DNA of 30,771 nucleotides, from positions 1-30,771 of the IMG/VR virus record IMGVR_UViG_3300031839_001069, one strand, 5' to 3'. Below the pieces are notes generated by a model. The model was not told where the DNA came from. It saw only the letters and a program-made list of their open reading frames with translations, and ran no database searches. A program made the translations under genes and the position numbers. The stretch is from a virus. Below, piece after piece: positions 3,999 through 12,973 of the stretch. Position 1 is the stretch's first letter. Each line of letters starts with the position of its first letter.

Positions 3999-4241
3999 TT
4001 AACGGTTATTTCGTATATCAGCTTTTATCTCTTTCATCTGCTCTTCTAAAAAATATAAGCGTTGGTCTAATTTAGTGATAGCTTCTTTAAATAGCTCTCT
4101 ATCCTTCTCAGCATCAAGCAATATTCGATCGATACTCTGGTTCTGGAAATGCACAAATTGTCGGTTCATATACAAAGCAACAATGACAGCAGCCGCAGGG
4201 CCAGTTAAGAAGGGTATAAGTTCCATCAATAGTGTTTCCAT
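3999..4241 (-). CDS. Holin-like protein (one membrane span plus coiled coil), 80 aa
   Basis: Residues 9-25 (IPFLTGPAAAVIVALYM) form a single membrane span and residues about 33-78 are a charged heptad-like helix, ending in a basic tail. This layout matches small holin-type proteins of the BhlA/UviB kind, which make lesions in the inner membrane at the end of infection. A GAGAGGT ribosome site precedes the ATG. It is the last gene before a strong terminator, a usual place for lysis genes. No endolysin is recognised nearby, so the holin role is plausible but unproven. Confidence 0.55.
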   Translation of the reverse strand: METLLMELIPFLTGPAAAVIVALYMNRQFVHFQNQSIDRILLDAEKDRELFKEAITKLDQRLYFLEEQMKEIKADIRNNR

Positions 4242-6231: not shown

Positions 6232-6504
6232 TTATTTTTTTCCTTTCTTCTTCTTTGGAAAGTCAATACTTCTTGCCTTCCCACCCCTTAGAACAGAATT
6301 TACACGAGCCATTGCCCATTGATGTGCTGTCATACCTTTTCTCGATCCGCTACTCATGTAAGCAGCAAGTCCTTTATCATATGACTTCTTCAGTTGTGAA
6401 GGTGTAAATTTACTTTTTGCCGCCTTTTTTCTTAGGGCTGCCATTACGCCTTTTCCCTTTCCTTTTGACGACTTTTTTGCTGGGCTTTTTTTTGCTTTTG
6501 CCAC
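6232..6504 (-). CDS. Lysine-rich basic protein, 90 aa, GTG start
   Basis: The start is GTG at 6504-6502 with AGGAGA six bases upstream. The N-terminal 35 residues are Lys/Ala/Ser-rich, residues about 36-80 form a more ordered part (SYDKGLAAYMSSGSRKGMTA then HQWAMARVNSVL), and the tail is poly-lysine. From memory, similar 'AY.SSGSR.GM.AH.WAM.RVNS' stretches occur in marine phage virion proteins; I cannot check that here. It overlaps the 83-aa gene by 95 bases in another frame. DNA binding or condensation inside the head is a reasonable guess from the charge. Confidence 0.75.
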   Translation of the reverse strand: MAKAKKSPAKKSSKGKGKGVMAALRKKAAKSKFTPSQLKKSYDKGLAAYMSSGSRKGMTAHQWAMARVNSVLRGGKARSIDFPKKKKGKK

Positions 6505-6661
6505 GCTCTTTCTCCTCCATCTTCTCTCTTAAAGCTGCAGCTTGTTTTACCTTGCCTTGCTTGTAGAGTTTCGATGCTTTTTTAATTAGTTTTGCACGCT
6601 TGCTTCCTTTCGGAGCACCATATTGTTTAGGTAAAGACTTTACCTTTGCCTTTCTTTTCAT
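6410..6661 (-). CDS. Very basic lysine-rich protein, 83 aa
   Basis: The ATG at 6661-6659 overlaps the stop of the 31-aa gene as ATGA. Nearly half the residues are Lys or Arg, in runs such as KSKKKPSKKVVKRKGKRR; the middle (about 22-52) could form a helix. The last 95 bases are also the start of the 90-aa gene in another frame, so one purine-rich stretch encodes two basic sequences. It probably binds nucleic acid by charge. No family recognised. Confidence 0.65.
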   Translation of the reverse strand: MKRKAKVKSLPKQYGAPKGSKRAKLIKKASKLYKQGKVKQAAALREKMEEKERGKSKKKPSKKVVKRKGKRRNGSPKKKGGKK

Positions 6662-6753
6662 TTCTTCTTCTTCTTAGGAGCCTTTCTTTTGATTGGCTTC
6701 TTAGCAGGTTTCTTTTTCTTTATCGGCTTACTTTTGTATTTGTATGCTGGCAT
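6658..6753 (-). CDS. 31-aa poly-lysine mini-protein
   Basis: An ATG at 6753 opens a 31-codon frame, MPAYKYKSKPIKKKKPAKKP then an IKRKAP segment and five lysines. Sixteen of 31 residues are lysine, with regularly placed prolines, like a histone-tail or protamine-type peptide. It begins one base after the 47-aa gene stops and ends in an ATGA overlap with the 83-aa gene. The upstream GAGGAAGAATAAA supplies a ribosome site. The tight packing supports translation, though such a short frame could be mainly a coupling device. Confidence 0.6.
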   Translation of the reverse strand: MPAYKYKSKPIKKKKPAKKPIKRKAPKKKKK

Positions 6754-6754
6754 T

Positions 6755-6898
6755 TTATTCTTCCTCTTGTTGTTGTTCTGGTGTTTCCACCGTTGGTTCT
6801 AGAGTACATGTCGCCCATTGCGTGGTAATTACTAAGGCCATACCTACAAAGCCAACACGAATTTTATTCTCGTTCATCCATTGTATTAATTTTTGCAT
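6755..6898 (-). CDS. Single-span small membrane protein, 47 aa
   Basis: The ATG at 6898 is preceded by GAGGAG, which forms the last codons of the 17-aa gene. The product begins MQKLIQWMNENKIR, has a hydrophobic stretch at about 13-30 (VGFVGMALVITTQWA) and ends in an acidic Glu/Gln tail. One short span with a positive N-terminal side suggests an inner-membrane protein. There is a cysteine at 31 but no proper lipobox. A second holin or lysis regulator is possible; so is a role in ejection, given the neighbours. Confidence 0.6.
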   Translation of the reverse strand: MQKLIQWMNENKIRVGFVGMALVITTQWATCTLEPTVETPEQQQEEE

Positions 6899-6900
6899 AA

Positions 6901-6954
6901 TTACTCCTCACATCTGCATGGGTCACATTGACACTTCTTACATTCGTCACTCAT
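6901..6954 (-). CDS. 17-aa cysteine-rich micro-peptide
   Basis: The frame MSDECKKCQCDPCRCEE runs from an ATG at 6954-6952, which overlaps the stop of the 112-aa gene (ATGA), to TAA at 6903-6901. Five of 17 residues are cysteine in a CxxCxCxxCxC pattern, which could hold one metal ion or form disulphides. Its GAGGAG codons are the ribosome site of the next gene, so it may serve as a coupling leader as well as, or instead of, making a working peptide. Confidence 0.5.
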   Translation of the reverse strand: MSDECKKCQCDPCRCEE

Positions 6955-7289
6955 TTTTTCCTCCGAGTTTTAGTTTTCTTTTTGGCTACACGCCCTTTCG
7001 TACCTGTAGTTTTCTTTGGACTGGATGCTGACCATAAGTCTTTGCATGCCCAGTATTTTGCTGTTGTCTTGTCTTTTGCTTTATCACATCCATGACGCGC
7101 TCTAAATGACTTTCTTGCAGCTTTACTGATGTTATGGCCAAAACCTTTCGCACCATAGTGTATAAGTTTTTTGCGACCATTCTTCATTACAACAACCATC
7201 TTCTTTTTGTTGGGTTTGTATGAACGCGCGGGTTTGCCGACCTTCAGTCGTTTCTTTGCTGCTGCTGCTTTTGATTGTTTTTTAGCCAT
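6951..7289 (-). CDS. Basic Lys/Arg-rich protein, 112 aa
   Basis: Both ends are strongly basic (KKRLKVGKP...; ...KKKTKTRRKK), with a hydrophobic MVVVMKNG segment at 31-38 and a more ordered centre at about 43-86 (HYGAKGFGHNISKAARKSFR, then ARHGCDKAKDKTTAKYWACK). Cys68, Cys82 and His66 could bind a metal. From memory, similar 'FRARH.C..AKDKTT..YW.C' stretches occur in marine phage proteins; unchecked. It follows the 1889-aa gene and is upstream of the other basic mini-genes. Packaged DNA-binding protein is my best guess. Confidence 0.75.
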   Translation of the reverse strand: MAKKQSKAAAAKKRLKVGKPARSYKPNKKKMVVVMKNGRKKLIHYGAKGFGHNISKAARKSFRARHGCDKAKDKTTAKYWACKDLWSASSPKKTTGTKGRVAKKKTKTRRKK

Positions 7290-7303: not shown

Positions 7304-10300
7304 TTATTTTTCAAATTTCTCTAATGACTTGTCAAGTCTTCTTTCTGTTTCTTTCAATGCTCTATATTCTATTTCCAAGTCGCGTGGTACACGAACTGCA
7401 CGCTTCTTTAAAAATAAATAGTCAAATGCAGGTGTGATAAAAGGTGCTTCATCCTTTCCAAAGTAAGTTAGTTCTGTATTTGGTGGTGCTTCAATAACAC
7501 CTTCTCTAACCAGTGCATTGTAATAGTCATTGAAACCTCTTTGTATACCAGCACCTGCTAGAATTAATTGGTCAGCCAAATAATAATTGTATCCAGTGCT
7601 GCTTCTAAAACGGTATTGATAACCATCAAATGTTGGTGAACCCGGTACTCGTCTTTCCAAAGGTCTTACTTCAATGTCATACCGATCGAGATAATAGTAT
7701 GGGTTACCACCATCTGCCATTAAATACATCATCATTGTGTGAGGTTGCATTGATAAGAATTGTGAACCATAAATACCTTGTTGCATTTTAAATAGTTCTT
7801 TTGCCGGCACACCTTTTTTGTAGTCAACATCTAGTTCTCGCATAAAGTCTATCATTGGTAGATATAAGAAGTCTGCTATACCTTCTTTAAAACGAGTTGA
7901 TGTATCTTCAGTTCTACCTGTTGCAATTGATGTGGCAAAACCTGTTAACTGACCGATCGACATAAGTGAACCAATGTATGGTGACCTCATGTATGTTTCA
8001 ACAATTCTATTCTTGCTATCATAACTATCAGTCACATCTCTCAATGCCAGTGCCTGTAATGTTTGGTCACCTTGCGTGTAATATGTTCCAAAAGCGCGTG
8101 ATAAGTCAAGGTGATATTTACTCATTGCTGCAACACGAAGAGCACCACCTGATGTTGTAAATGCTTTTAATAATTCTAATGTGCTGAGTGTTGTGAATGA
8201 CATATACAATGCCATCTTTCCAAAACCTCTTCTAAATGCTGGTGGCATCTTACCATAGTCCAACATTACCTCTCTTGCCATCAGAGCAGCACTATCTACA
8301 GATGCACCTTTTTGCAAAGCTGCTACAAATATAGACTCTCTAAATGCACGATCAGTTTCGTCTGCCCACCTCATAAATGGAGACATTGTAGGTGAAAGAG
8401 GTGAAGCTAATTCTGATGGACCTGATAATATATCTTGTGTTGCACGACGACCGTAACTGGCACCACCTGCAAAAAAGTCTTGCATATATTTTTTCGGGTC
8501 TAATGCACCTTTAAAGTCACCGGAGGTTTTAAACAATGCACCATATCCAGGTACACCTCTTGTAAAGCGTTGCCATCCTGATGCTTCTAGTGCAATATCA
8601 CTATAAAATGCGTCACCTAAGTTGATACCTTGTTGTGACACACCTAAGTTGCGTCGTGTAAATTCTTGATAGACCTGAGCGTATGTAAACCTGGTGCCTG
8701 GCAGAATGCTATCTGGAGCTGCTTGCGCCATATACCTTAGTTTCCTATAAGGCGTCAAACCAAGTACACTGCCAAAGGTCTGTGAAAATACTGTTGGCCA
8801 ATACTTTGGATTGGTCACATATGTTATTAAATTAGCGGTAAGTAAGTTTTCCATTTGATAAGGAATGTTTGGAACCATCTTACCACCTAACTGACCTGAT
8901 ACGAATGTTCTTCGCAAACCATTGAAGTAGTAATTCATCATTCCTTGTGCATATTCACTAATGTCTCTGTTTCTTTGTAGCTTGCTGAAGTTTTGTGTTA
9001 CTATGTCAGTATCTAGCGCACCTAGTTCTCTTATAATTTTGTTAATACTATCTAGTTCTGCTTTTGCCATAGGATATAATATATTTCTGTCAAAACCTTG
9101 CGGACCTTTAAACTCGATCTGTCTTAATTTATAGTTGTAGTTTTCCATCAAGTCTACAGGTGATACTTGTCTTTTTAATGCTGTGACCTCAATGTAGTTT
9201 GCCATCGCGTTTGAAGCACCACCATCTAACATTGCTAAAAACCTTCTTGGGTCTAGTCCACTTTCTTTATATGCTTTACCTATTTGATTGTCACGCATTG
9301 CAAAATTGTCTATCATTGCTTCTGCTTCTGCAAAATTCATGTCATTAATTAAGTCATCAAGTCCATTTGTAATGCGATACTCAACCAAGTCTGTTATTAC
9401 TCTTTGCATTGTTTCATGTGATAAAGGTCGACCAAAGGTGTTATATGCTACTTTTGCTGCACCTCCTAGTGACTGTGCAAAAGGTTCTGTTACAAATGTT
9501 TCATTCAATGCAGTTTTTACAATTCTATTTACTTCTTCGCTTACCATTACGGCAGCGATTGCATCATTTGACTTAACAACTTTGTCCAAACTAAACTCAG
9601 GATATTTTTGTATAATGTCTGCAATTGTTTCTTCTGCTTTTGCAAATGCTGACATATCACCAACATCTATTTTTGAAATTAATTCATTGACTTCTGCATT
9701 AATACGAGCATTTGGTCCAAGAACAGCATGAACATATTTCTTTGCAAACACATTCATACGAAGTTTGTCAAATATGTCTGGTGCTTTATTTATTGCATTG
9801 TACATTTGCTGTTTAGACATCGAGCTTATTTCTGCAAGACTAAAGCCTTTTTGCTGCAAGTAAGCAACTGTTGTATAAATACCTTTTTGTTTTTGTACCG
9901 GACCAAAACCTTCAAACAAATGACCAACCGGACTTCTTTCCAAAAACATACCAACTCTTCTGGAACCTAAAAATTCTGTATCTGGTGCACCTCTCAACAT
10001 AGCAAATTCATCCTGTAACTGATCGTAATTACGAGCAACATTACCAAATGCACCTTTCATTGACCGTTCAAGTCTTTGTACACCTTCATTAACTTGTGTG
10101 TTAAATATCTGTGTTGAAGCACGGGTTTGTGCAGTTTGTGCCTGAACATTAGATGGTTTCTTTAACAATGGGTCTGTAACTTTTGCTATAGCTTTTTTAA
10201 TGTTGACCGGTGTATATGAACGATATGCTTGCTTCAATGCAGTCAAACCTATAGCACCTCTTCTCTCAAAAGGTTCAACCGCTTCTTCTAAAACGCGTGC

Positions 10301-12973
10301 ACCTTTTGCTTTAAATGCAGAGTCTGATGCATCAAGCACCAACCTGTCAACCATTCTATTAGTTATGTAAATACTTTCAGCAGTTGTCAATTCTGCTTTA
10401 CCTGCCAGTTCTGCAAGATATGAGTCACCTGATACACGAGCTATTTCTTTAACTTCTTCAGCGTCTAATAATTTATATCTTATTCTACCTGTATCGTCTG
10501 GAATAAATTCAATAACATTTGACTTACCATCTGTTGTTAAAACATCTACAATTTCGTCTTTGTAATTTGCATCCATCCATTTCTTACTAACAATAACTCG
10601 ATCCGTTAGCATGATGTAGTCATCAAGACCAAACTTAGTTGTTTCTTCTAATGCAACACCTCTTAATTCTCTTCTTCTATCCAGTACTTTTTCTGCATCT
10701 AGTACACCAAAGTCATCAATAACATTTGTACCTCTTTCCAAAGCATCTTGTGCCATTGGTCCTAATATTTCTGTTTCTGACTGTACTAATTCTTCCAGTG
10801 CCTTTTTTGCCTGTTGAGGTGACATGCTTTCAACAGCACCAAATGCTCTTGCTCCAATGATGCCATTATCAGCTGATAAATTTAATGCTCTTCGCCCACC
10901 TCTTGCCTGTAATTCTAGAGCCTGTACAAAGTCTGATGTTTGGTCTGCTACTTTTGCACGAACTGAACTAACTTCATCAAACAATGTGTTTCTTATATTT
11001 GGTAGGTCATCAAGTGCACCAGCCAATGTTTGACCGTCTGTTAATTTTGCAATAACCTTTGCATCTGCTGCGGCTGCCATTGTAATAGGTGCTTTTGCTG
11101 CAATTGCTGGTAGTACTTCGTCGCCTAATTTTACAAATGCAAAGAGTGGGTTACCACCACCAGCAAGAACATCTAAGCCAAACTCACCAGTTCGAAGCGC
11201 GGTTCTTCCTATTTTACCCGTTACTGGAGCACCTGCTTTACCAGCTACAAATTCAACCGCACCTCTAACAGCTTTTGTAGGTTTACCAAGTGTTGCGATC
11301 GCCTTTGACTTACCAACAGGAAGAGGAATTAAAAATTCACCAACTGTACCTGCTAGAAGCAAACCATCTTTTGCACTTGCAGGTAATTCTGCACCAAACA
11401 CACTATCTATTTCTGCCAAGTCGTTACCAAGACCACGCATTGTTGCGGTTTCTACCAAGACTTCTTTTAAATATGCTTCACCCATACCAAGTAAGTCATC
11501 GTTTGCTACAGCTTCTGTATATTCTCTTCTTGGTGCCTTCAACATCTCTTGTAGTTCTGATGTTTGTGTTTCTTCTTCTGCTGGTGTTCTATCAATTAAA
11601 CCTAAGTTTTCTGCACCACTCATTGCTGGGTTAACAACTAGTCGTAACAAACCTGCTGTATCACGAAGTATCATCATACCTGCAGACTCAGTGATAACAT
11701 CTGGGTTTTCAATATATCCACCTTGATAAAGAATATTTCTCATTTGTGGTGAGTATTTTGTTGTCGTTAATGCAGTCAAACCTTCTGCACCAAACTCAAT
11801 GAACGGATCAGTAATTGAAGATATAAGACTTTTCTCAACAGGAAAATTTTGCTTTATTCTTTTTGCTTCAGAATTTGGAAAACCTAACTCATCTCTAAAT
11901 GTCATATCAATTATTTCACTGACATATGCATTTGCAACCGGTTCTAGTTCTTGTTTAATTACTTCCATTTCATCAACTGAGTAACCAAAAAGTTGTGGTG
12001 ATGACAGAGGATTGATACCAATAGCTTCAATGTCTTCTTGTTTTTGTACCAATTCTTGTAGTACATCACCTTTCAAGCTTTCAAAATATTGGTCTCTTGC
12101 TTGCTGAGTGGTAAGTTTTGGTGTTTGTGTTTTATTTAATTTATCCATCAACGCATTTTGTGCATTTTGGTTATCTCTAAATGTATTGATGTTGCCAGCA
12201 GTAATTTGTCTAATTTTGTCCATCTCTGCTCGTTTTCTTTCTTCTTGAGCAGATATAGGCAAGACTTGTGGTGCCAAAGCAGCCTTTGCAGTTTCTGTTA
12301 ATGTCATTTCATCTGCTAATTCTGGTTGCATTAACAAACGACCAGGTGCGACTGGTGTAGGTTTAATATCGAAAGGTTGTACACTTCTTGCCTTTCTTGG
12401 TGACTTTACAGAAAAGACTTCTTCATTTGCTCTATCCTGTGCAGTTGTTCCTACTTTATCGAGCTCCCCTTGTACGAACATTGCTTGGTCGGCACGATAT
12501 GAGTTAATGTCAGGGTCAAGAGATATTGACACATCCATTGCATTGTAACCTGCAGGAGGTGGGTTTGCTGACTCATATTGTACACGATATAGTTCACCTA
12601 GTTGCACCTCATCTGGAAAGCCTTCTGACTTATATCTTTCTACGGCCGCAGAATATACTTCCTGCTGCTTTTCGTCTAGCAGGCCCGGGATAATAAGGCT
12701 TTCAGCTTGAAATACATCCTTGTCCATCTGCAAAGCATCTAGACTTGGTGTTTCTACATCTGTATCAGGGTCCAAACCCGGTGTTCTTCTTTGTTCAAGT
12801 ATAGGTTGTTGTGTGGGGACTGGAGGTCTAGCAGCATCTTCACTCTTTTCTGTTCTAATTGCGTCAAGAAACTCTTGTGCGCCTGACATGTCGCCTTCGT
12901 TATACAGTTCCCTATAAAAGTCCAACTGTCCTTCTTCTAGCTCTTTGGCTGCTTCTTCTGGTGTAGGTGGCAT
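7304..12973 (-). CDS. Giant internal virion/ejection protein, 1889 aa (T7 gp16-like position)
   Basis: The largest gene, almost one fifth of the genome. The N-terminal ~200 residues are acidic and Pro/Gln-rich, the central ~1000 are mostly helical (Ala/Glu/Lys/Leu), and the last ~500 are more hydrophobic and aromatic. Near residue 1600 a stretch FRESIFVAALQKGASVDSAA...REVMLDYGKMPPAFRR resembles, from memory, a motif of giant polyvalent or ejection proteins. No transglycosylase signature (E...GLMQ) was seen. It follows 197- and 683-aa genes in the same order as T7 gp14, gp15 and gp16, so it likely lines the ejection channel. T7 gp16 is 1318 aa; this is far longer. Ribosome site GGAAAATAGAG. 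Confidence 0.75.
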   Translation of the reverse strand: MPPTPEEAAKELEEGQLDFYRELYNEGDMSGAQEFLDAIRTEKSEDAARPPVPTQQPILEQRRTPGLDPDTDVETPSLDALQMDKDVFQAESLIIPGLLDEKQQEVYSAAVERYKSEGFPDEVQLGELYRVQYESANPPPAGYNAMDVSISLDPDINSYRADQAMFVQGELDKVGTTAQDRANEEVFSVKSPRKARSVQPFDIKPTPVAPGRLLMQPELADEMTLTETAKAALAPQVLPISAQEERKRAEMDKIRQITAGNINTFRDNQNAQNALMDKLNKTQTPKLTTQQARDQYFESLKGDVLQELVQKQEDIEAIGINPLSSPQLFGYSVDEMEVIKQELEPVANAYVSEIIDMTFRDELGFPNSEAKRIKQNFPVEKSLISSITDPFIEFGAEGLTALTTTKYSPQMRNILYQGGYIENPDVITESAGMMILRDTAGLLRLVVNPAMSGAENLGLIDRTPAEEETQTSELQEMLKAPRREYTEAVANDDLLGMGEAYLKEVLVETATMRGLGNDLAEIDSVFGAELPASAKDGLLLAGTVGEFLIPLPVGKSKAIATLGKPTKAVRGAVEFVAGKAGAPVTGKIGRTALRTGEFGLDVLAGGGNPLFAFVKLGDEVLPAIAAKAPITMAAAADAKVIAKLTDGQTLAGALDDLPNIRNTLFDEVSSVRAKVADQTSDFVQALELQARGGRRALNLSADNGIIGARAFGAVESMSPQQAKKALEELVQSETEILGPMAQDALERGTNVIDDFGVLDAEKVLDRRRELRGVALEETTKFGLDDYIMLTDRVIVSKKWMDANYKDEIVDVLTTDGKSNVIEFIPDDTGRIRYKLLDAEEVKEIARVSGDSYLAELAGKAELTTAESIYITNRMVDRLVLDASDSAFKAKGARVLEEAVEPFERRGAIGLTALKQAYRSYTPVNIKKAIAKVTDPLLKKPSNVQAQTAQTRASTQIFNTQVNEGVQRLERSMKGAFGNVARNYDQLQDEFAMLRGAPDTEFLGSRRVGMFLERSPVGHLFEGFGPVQKQKGIYTTVAYLQQKGFSLAEISSMSKQQMYNAINKAPDIFDKLRMNVFAKKYVHAVLGPNARINAEVNELISKIDVGDMSAFAKAEETIADIIQKYPEFSLDKVVKSNDAIAAVMVSEEVNRIVKTALNETFVTEPFAQSLGGAAKVAYNTFGRPLSHETMQRVITDLVEYRITNGLDDLINDMNFAEAEAMIDNFAMRDNQIGKAYKESGLDPRRFLAMLDGGASNAMANYIEVTALKRQVSPVDLMENYNYKLRQIEFKGPQGFDRNILYPMAKAELDSINKIIRELGALDTDIVTQNFSKLQRNRDISEYAQGMMNYYFNGLRRTFVSGQLGGKMVPNIPYQMENLLTANLITYVTNPKYWPTVFSQTFGSVLGLTPYRKLRYMAQAAPDSILPGTRFTYAQVYQEFTRRNLGVSQQGINLGDAFYSDIALEASGWQRFTRGVPGYGALFKTSGDFKGALDPKKYMQDFFAGGASYGRRATQDILSGPSELASPLSPTMSPFMRWADETDRAFRESIFVAALQKGASVDSAALMAREVMLDYGKMPPAFRRGFGKMALYMSFTTLSTLELLKAFTTSGGALRVAAMSKYHLDLSRAFGTYYTQGDQTLQALALRDVTDSYDSKNRIVETYMRSPYIGSLMSIGQLTGFATSIATGRTEDTSTRFKEGIADFLYLPMIDFMRELDVDYKKGVPAKELFKMQQGIYGSQFLSMQPHTMMMYLMADGGNPYYYLDRYDIEVRPLERRVPGSPTFDGYQYRFRSSTGYNYYLADQLILAGAGIQRGFNDYYNALVREGVIEAPPNTELTYFGKDEAPFITPAFDYLFLKKRAVRVPRDLEIEYRALKETERRLDKSLEKFEK

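Follow-up and report, generated by a model that had tools for sequence, protein, structure and literature searches.

A mini-gene cluster in a 30.8-kb phage sequence contains a recurrent three-domain module of candidate procapsid-interior proteins

Results

Layout of the cluster

Six small frames occupy 7289-6232 on the minus strand of the window, by which we mean the whole 30,771-nt stretch of viral DNA analyzed here. The first-pass annotation had reported six mini-genes of 112, 17, 47, 31, 83 and 90 aa within about 1.06 kb, and all six frames were confirmed. It had described four products as strongly basic, which the computed net charges bore out (+37, +17, +33 and +26). The five cysteines reported for the 17-residue product are present in MSDECKKCQCDPCRCEE, and the proposed membrane protein, the 47-aa product, has one hydrophobic segment. 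The features are listed below.

7304-12973, minus strand: 1889-aa protein, directly upstream of the cluster
7289-6951, minus strand: 112-aa basic protein, net charge +37; predicted core (about residues 15-90) made up of a beta hairpin with two helices, and a disordered lysine-rich tail; phrog_7595
6954-6901, minus strand: 17-aa Cys-rich peptide, MSDECKKCQCDPCRCEE, five Cys, net charge -2
6898-6755, minus strand: 47-aa protein, single TM segment, net charge -4; conserved Cys just past the TM segment, acidic tail
6753-6658, minus strand: 31-aa lysine/proline peptide, net charge +17; length and place vary among relatives
6661-6410, minus strand: 83-aa basic protein, net charge +33; helical domain PxQYxAPxGSxR...LRxxMExxER
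6504-6232, minus strand: 90-aa basic protein, net charge +26; DUF5824 (Pfam E 2.3e-9); GTG start
6410-6504, minus strand: dual-coding overlap of the 83- and 90-aa genes, 95 nt, +1 frame
6512-6518, minus strand: Shine-Dalgarno sequence GGAGGAG of the 90-aa gene, within the 83-aa gene, where it encodes MEE of MEEKERG

Tight junctions of the ATGA or one- to two-base type, claimed for the whole cluster, were found at four of the five boundaries: ATGA overlaps join the 112- to the 17-aa gene and the 31- to the 83-aa gene, and gaps of 2 and 1 nt separate the 17/47 and 47/31 pairs. The fifth boundary, between the 83- and 90-aa genes, is the 95-nt out-of-frame overlap. Of the 50 window frames of at least 45 aa, the top three by basicity encode the 83-, 112- and 90-aa proteins.

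The 112-aa gene follows the 1889-aa frame after 14 nt. The cluster had been placed after a giant ejection protein; the position stood, and the label "ejection" rests on position and size, the gene having a T7 gp16-like place in the gene order. The 1889-aa protein matched no PHROG or Pfam family and nothing in 50,697 phage records. A nucleotide search of the same records with the cluster gave chance matches only, and the 83-aa protein had no match in them. The phage group appears to lack a cultured close relative, and the literature searched yielded no virion proteomics for phages close to it.

Evidence that the frames are genes

Because lysine codons exclude stops in AAA/AAG-rich DNA, frame length is weak evidence here. 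The same scarcity of stops is what would allow chance frames within a lysine-rich stretch, and stop-free runs of at least 112 codons occurred in 5% of dinucleotide-model shuffles. Conservation, unlike frame length, is decisive. In comparison with L005 (L numbers denote fetched loci), dN/dS was 0.07 for the 112-aa gene, 0.12 for the 47-aa gene, 0.24 for the 31-aa gene, 0.37 for the partly overlapped 83-aa gene and 0.18 for the 90-aa gene, and the 17-mer had silent changes only. Other pairs gave 0.04-0.05 for the 112-aa gene and 0.09-0.19 for the 90-aa gene, and the membrane-protein gene ranged from 0.12 to 1.07, with values of about 1 within the L007/L009/L094 group. These values point to clear purifying selection on the 112-, 83- and 90-aa genes.

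The gene set is also retained in about ten relatives with only 25-45% identity in the giant protein. Most of the set adjoins a homologue of the 1889-aa protein, often at this low identity, in L003-L011, L013, L094, L095 and L098. The first-pass annotation had named a lack of conservation of the frames as part of what would refute its reading; the frames are conserved by both dN/dS and comparison with relatives. Against chance frames, dN/dS is well below 1 in the closest pair, the 90-aa gene keeps the same start context and reading frame in 8 genomes, and the domains are conserved across about 170 loci. We consider the chance explanation extremely improbable, and these comparisons refute it for the 112-, 83- and 90-aa frames; the 31-mer is the least certain.

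The Cys-rich peptide and the membrane protein

The five Cys columns of the 17-mer are invariant in eight sequences, and its gene always lies directly 5' of the membrane-protein gene. A 16-19-aa C-x-C...C peptide coupled to a single-TM gene was seen at 6755-6954 of the window and in L004-L009, L094 and L098. The pair follows the 112-aa gene in the window, L004, L005 and L006, and the 90-aa gene in L007, L008, L009, L094 and L098. Since its position differs among relatives, the pair moves apart from the basic genes. In the gene-order comparison that had been proposed, most of the set is kept beside the 1889-aa homologue, and the 17/47 pair shifts its place. The two products are possibly a metal- or disulfide-linked membrane pair. 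A lipoprotein reading of the 47-aa protein was rejected: Thr precedes the conserved Cys and the usual lipobox is lacking.

Two further small genes were noted. An extra basic mini-gene of 40-58 aa, MPYSKYSPKQKKLA... (MPYSKYSPKQKKLAAVAPPRKKITKADLxxLRK), is absent from the window and conserved in the corresponding neighborhood of the relatives L004, L006, L007, L008, L009, L094, L095, L098 and L103. An 80-aa TM/coiled-coil protein at 3999-4241 of the window is 94% identical to L008 8188-8427, and its neighbors are far more diverged, which suggests that this gene was recently exchanged.

The overlapping 83- and 90-aa genes

The 90-aa protein is a member of Pfam DUF5824 (37.9 bits, E 2.3e-9; curated cut-off, 25 bits), a family not named in any paper of the literature searched. 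In all eight genomes compared, its gene has a GTG start in the +1 frame relative to the 83-aa gene, with an overlap of 53-95 nt. Within a few bases of this GTG, on its 5' side and still in the 83-aa gene, lies a purine-rich ribosome site. This site is GGAGG, with the variant GGAGAGGAG in L094. A ribosome site is in this case preserved within the upstream coding region.

The 83-aa domain directly precedes DUF5824 in 73 of 94 loci, within the same protein in 48 and as a separate adjacent frame in 25. In large phages it makes up the N-terminal half of a single fused protein, whereas small phages encode two overlapping genes; these are two versions of the same pair. Structure prediction gave an all-helical model of the fused 83-90 protein (pLDDT 73). 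A programmed frameshift joining the two frames was weighed since they are fused elsewhere; we disfavor it, since the +1 placement of the 90-aa gene is constant and this gene has a ribosome site and a GTG start to itself.

The 112-aa domain and its relatives

The 112-aa protein matched phrog_7595 with an E value of 1.7e-12 over profile positions 3-96 of 96. Its structure was predicted with fair confidence (pLDDT 76) as a beta hairpin and two helices with a disordered tail. Fold matches among viral models were the portal fusion of Aphanizomenon phage CL131, a protein of Roseobacter phage CRP-6, an XkdF and ORF125 of Vibrio phage ICP1; Tunisvirus and CeV proteins matched more weakly. Zinc binding through the conserved H-x-C...C was considered and is not essential to the fold family, because the ICP1 and MED4-184 homologues lack both Cys.

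DUF5754, which is Tlr6F in Polinton-like viruses (PMC12220804) and has no known function (PMC4642659), matched 23 of 55 members of the 112 family weakly (E <= 0.1; best E 0.004). None of 30 records exceeded its cut-off of 27.4 bits (best, 17.4 bits). Distant kinship between the two families is likely; we do not claim membership.

Fusions of the 112 domain to the uncharacterized viral family DUF5872 were seen at L045 3870-5291 and L053 792-1667. In Vibrio phage GR7B (L090 2184-4243), a 112-like gene lies downstream of a GDSL lipase gene; the Peptidase_S78_2 annotated for the 124-aa protein was not reproduced by Pfam.

Linkage of the domains across phages

Of 176 fetched loci that were profiled, 140 contained the 112 domain and 94 contained DUF5824, totals that reflect the way they were retrieved. 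A fairer measure comes from the 80 loci retrieved with the 90-aa protein: the 112 domain lay within 3 kb in 46 of them, always on the same strand (46/46); it came first in 41 of these 46, and the median distance was about 0.9 kb. Among the 42 90-aa-retrieved loci flanked by 3 kb or more on each side, 23 had it. The reverse test was positive in only 8 of 80 loci, indicating a wider distribution of the 112 family.

The 112 and 90 domains are fused in one protein in Melnitz gp18, L122 and L123. A single 650-aa protein of the Melnitz phages combines a cytidyltransferase domain, DUF5824 and the 112 domain, and in HTVC008M these domains are divided between two abutting genes. On these sequence relationships, the 112-, 83- and 90-aa proteins are three conserved, lysine-rich domains of a single recurrent module. 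The proposal that the cluster is a functional unit thus gained strong support for three of its six frames, from recurring neighbors, fusions and purifying selection. It did not extend to all six, the 17-mer and the membrane protein forming a separate pair that changes place together. Nor is the arrangement confined to 30-kb phages, since the set also occurs in phages above 200 kb.

Association with portal, protease and major capsid protein

Several fusions and neighbors connect the 112 domain with the phage head. It lies at about residues 510-609 of the 1393-aa portal-MuF protein of CL131, whose portal, ORF012, was detected by LC-MS/MS in purified particles (PMC6293099). It is fused to an XkdF-type protease in CRP-6 (Peptidase_S78_2/XkdF, 7e-18). 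ICP1 ORF125 has a protease domain at residues 36-160 followed by a 112-like domain at 188-265 (hhalign probability 96.6%, E 6e-10). This protein, gp125, is a predicted procapsid protease (PMC9040626, PMC7567579), and its gene has the portal on one side and the scaffold on the other. A T7-type portal was the upstream (5') neighbor in 13 of 18 scanned contigs fetched with the 112-aa protein. The portal and MCP of L041, L048 and L054 are homologous to those of the window, with the 112 domain between them. L115 has the 83- and 90-aa genes after portal and the 112-aa gene ahead of MCP; both L041 and L115 group the 112 domain with portal, scaffold and MCP.

Such arrangements could also be explained if the proteins acted in procapsid assembly or maturation, with acidic scaffold, portal or protease and not DNA as their binding partner. 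Factors of this kind would recruit cargo or aid packaging, and the mature head may no longer contain them. Consistent with this explanation, the 112 domain has portal and procapsid protease, not a DNA-binding domain, as fusion partners, and in L041 and L115 its position is between portal and MCP. The extreme lysine content of three separate partners argues against it, as does the persistence of the free proteins where no protease was found, and we consider assembly factors a rather unlikely alternative.

N-terminal sequences and prohead proteases

The T4 head protease cleaves after L/I-x-E, and T4 internal proteins carry a short N-terminal targeting peptide (PMC9026906). The domain proteins of large phages often start like MILTFNQYCILE followed by SKK, or like METRLKSFTQFIGE. 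In large phages L/I-x-E occurred within the first 18 residues of 40 of 59 domain proteins compared with 118 of 464 other frames, an odds ratio of 6.2 for sequences that are related rather than independent, the first start codon being taken as the start. A stricter targeting pattern was found in 27 of 73 versus 19 of 516, which is weaker evidence because the pattern was devised after examples had been seen. The gp21-type Peptidase_S77 was present in all six records of at least 120 kb and in none of nine shorter fragments, where absence means little. No S77, S78 or S78_2 protease was found in the window record, which may be incomplete, and no N-terminal L/I-x-E targeting peptide was found in the window proteins. 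A place inside the procapsid is thus supported indirectly, by the fusions, by the portal and MCP neighbors, and by the targeting-like N-termini and gp21-type protease of large relatives.

A second N-terminal pattern, xLKxLIKExLxExLxE, is common to DUF5824 proteins and a gene beside the prohead protease (L179 13-438; L180 946-1371; L125, L126 and L128), and may be another targeting peptide. In the four large phages L181-L184 the frame that holds the gp21-type protease domain is about 650 aa long or longer and adjoins a DnaJ-like gene.

Occurrences away from head genes

The domains also occur elsewhere. HTVC111P has the two domains far apart, near terL and near lysozyme; in Aegir the relative adjoins ribonucleotide reductase genes; and in CRP-738 it lies in front of terS, with endonuclease VII. 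These contexts, being away from head genes, leave a non-virion role open. The proteins would then be late nucleic-acid-binding or host-takeover proteins that act inside the cell and are not packaged. The ribonucleotide reductase of Aegir, the lysozyme of HTVC111P, the endonuclease VII and terS of CRP-738, and the cytidyltransferase context in HTVC008M and Melnitz favor such a role; the fusions to portal, MuF and XkdF, the targeting-like N-termini, and the detection of the portal fusion in CL131 virions speak against it. An intracellular role seems quite improbable to us.

Discussion

Conservation, selection, linkage and fusions were observed directly for this module, as were targeting-like N-termini in relatives. 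On balance we lean toward the interpretation that the cluster makes small basic procapsid-interior proteins that probably bind DNA and are possibly ejected with it. The 112-, 83- and 90-aa proteins would be made late together with the structural genes, the basic proteins would enter the procapsid, and their basic surfaces and tails would bind or neutralize packaged DNA. They would probably exit with the DNA at infection. Other phages would hold the same domains inside larger internal proteins, the 31-aa peptide would be an accessory basic peptide, and the 17-mer and 47-aa membrane protein would be a pair separate from the basic module. Capsid entry, DNA binding and ejection are steps that we infer for this phage.

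Together, single copies of the four basic proteins carry a charge of +113. T4 internal proteins are present at roughly 300 copies per head each (PMC9026906); with this copy number, borrowed from T4, the charge would offset about half of the 61,500 phosphates of the 30.8-kb genome. DNA condensation by the basic proteins is plausible from charge, and the lysine-rich tails could instead bind RNA or an acidic scaffold. The proteins may condense DNA, aid packaging, assist assembly or, once ejected, act in the host. Counting against a procapsid-interior role, the cluster genes of this phage follow the 1889-aa gene, not head genes. The suggestion that these are host-chromatin proteins found no backing; Pfam, PDB sequence and fold searches gave no HU or histone match. 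PDB searches by sequence and by fold returned nothing convincing, and no fold match to a known DNA-binding protein.

A broader and tentative possibility, which we hold to be doubtful, is that a small set of portable basic domains (112/Tlr6F-like, 83 and DUF5824) forms a general virion-interior DNA-organizing kit common to tailed phages whatever their size and, by way of Tlr6F/DUF5754, to Polinton-like and giant viruses. No function is assigned to the widespread viral families Tlr6F/DUF5754 and DUF5824, and the fusions and neighbors point inside the procapsid; if the kit exists, the phage fusions would be the first functional clue to Tlr6F. Whether the proteins lie inside the procapsid is directly testable in cultured CRP-6, CL131, HTVC111P and ICP1.

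The closest parallels are the T4 proteins IPI, IPII and IPIII (and Alt), which are small basic head-interior proteins; the cluster encodes four small basic proteins, of 31-112 aa and with charges of +17 to +37. The large-phage relatives share targeting-like L/I-x-E N-termini and a gp21-type protease in the genome. No sequence likeness to the T4 proteins was shown, and neither a targeting peptide nor a protease was found in this phage, which also differs in having three linked domains common to podo-, sipho- and T4-like phages. Among the portal-MuF and polyvalent proteins packaged in phage heads, that of CL131 includes the 112 domain as one of its modules, whereas here the domain stands alone without an enzyme domain. 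The likeness of the 112 family to Tlr6F/DUF5754 of Polinton-like viruses, virophages and giant viruses is weak, all matches falling under the Pfam cut-off. The 90-aa protein belongs to DUF5824/phrog_28338 above the cut-off; this family is uncharacterized, and the domain that usually precedes it at the N-terminus is encoded in this phage by a gene of its own that overlaps the 90-aa gene. The cluster would be a new variation on the internal head proteins of phages and not a system of a new kind.
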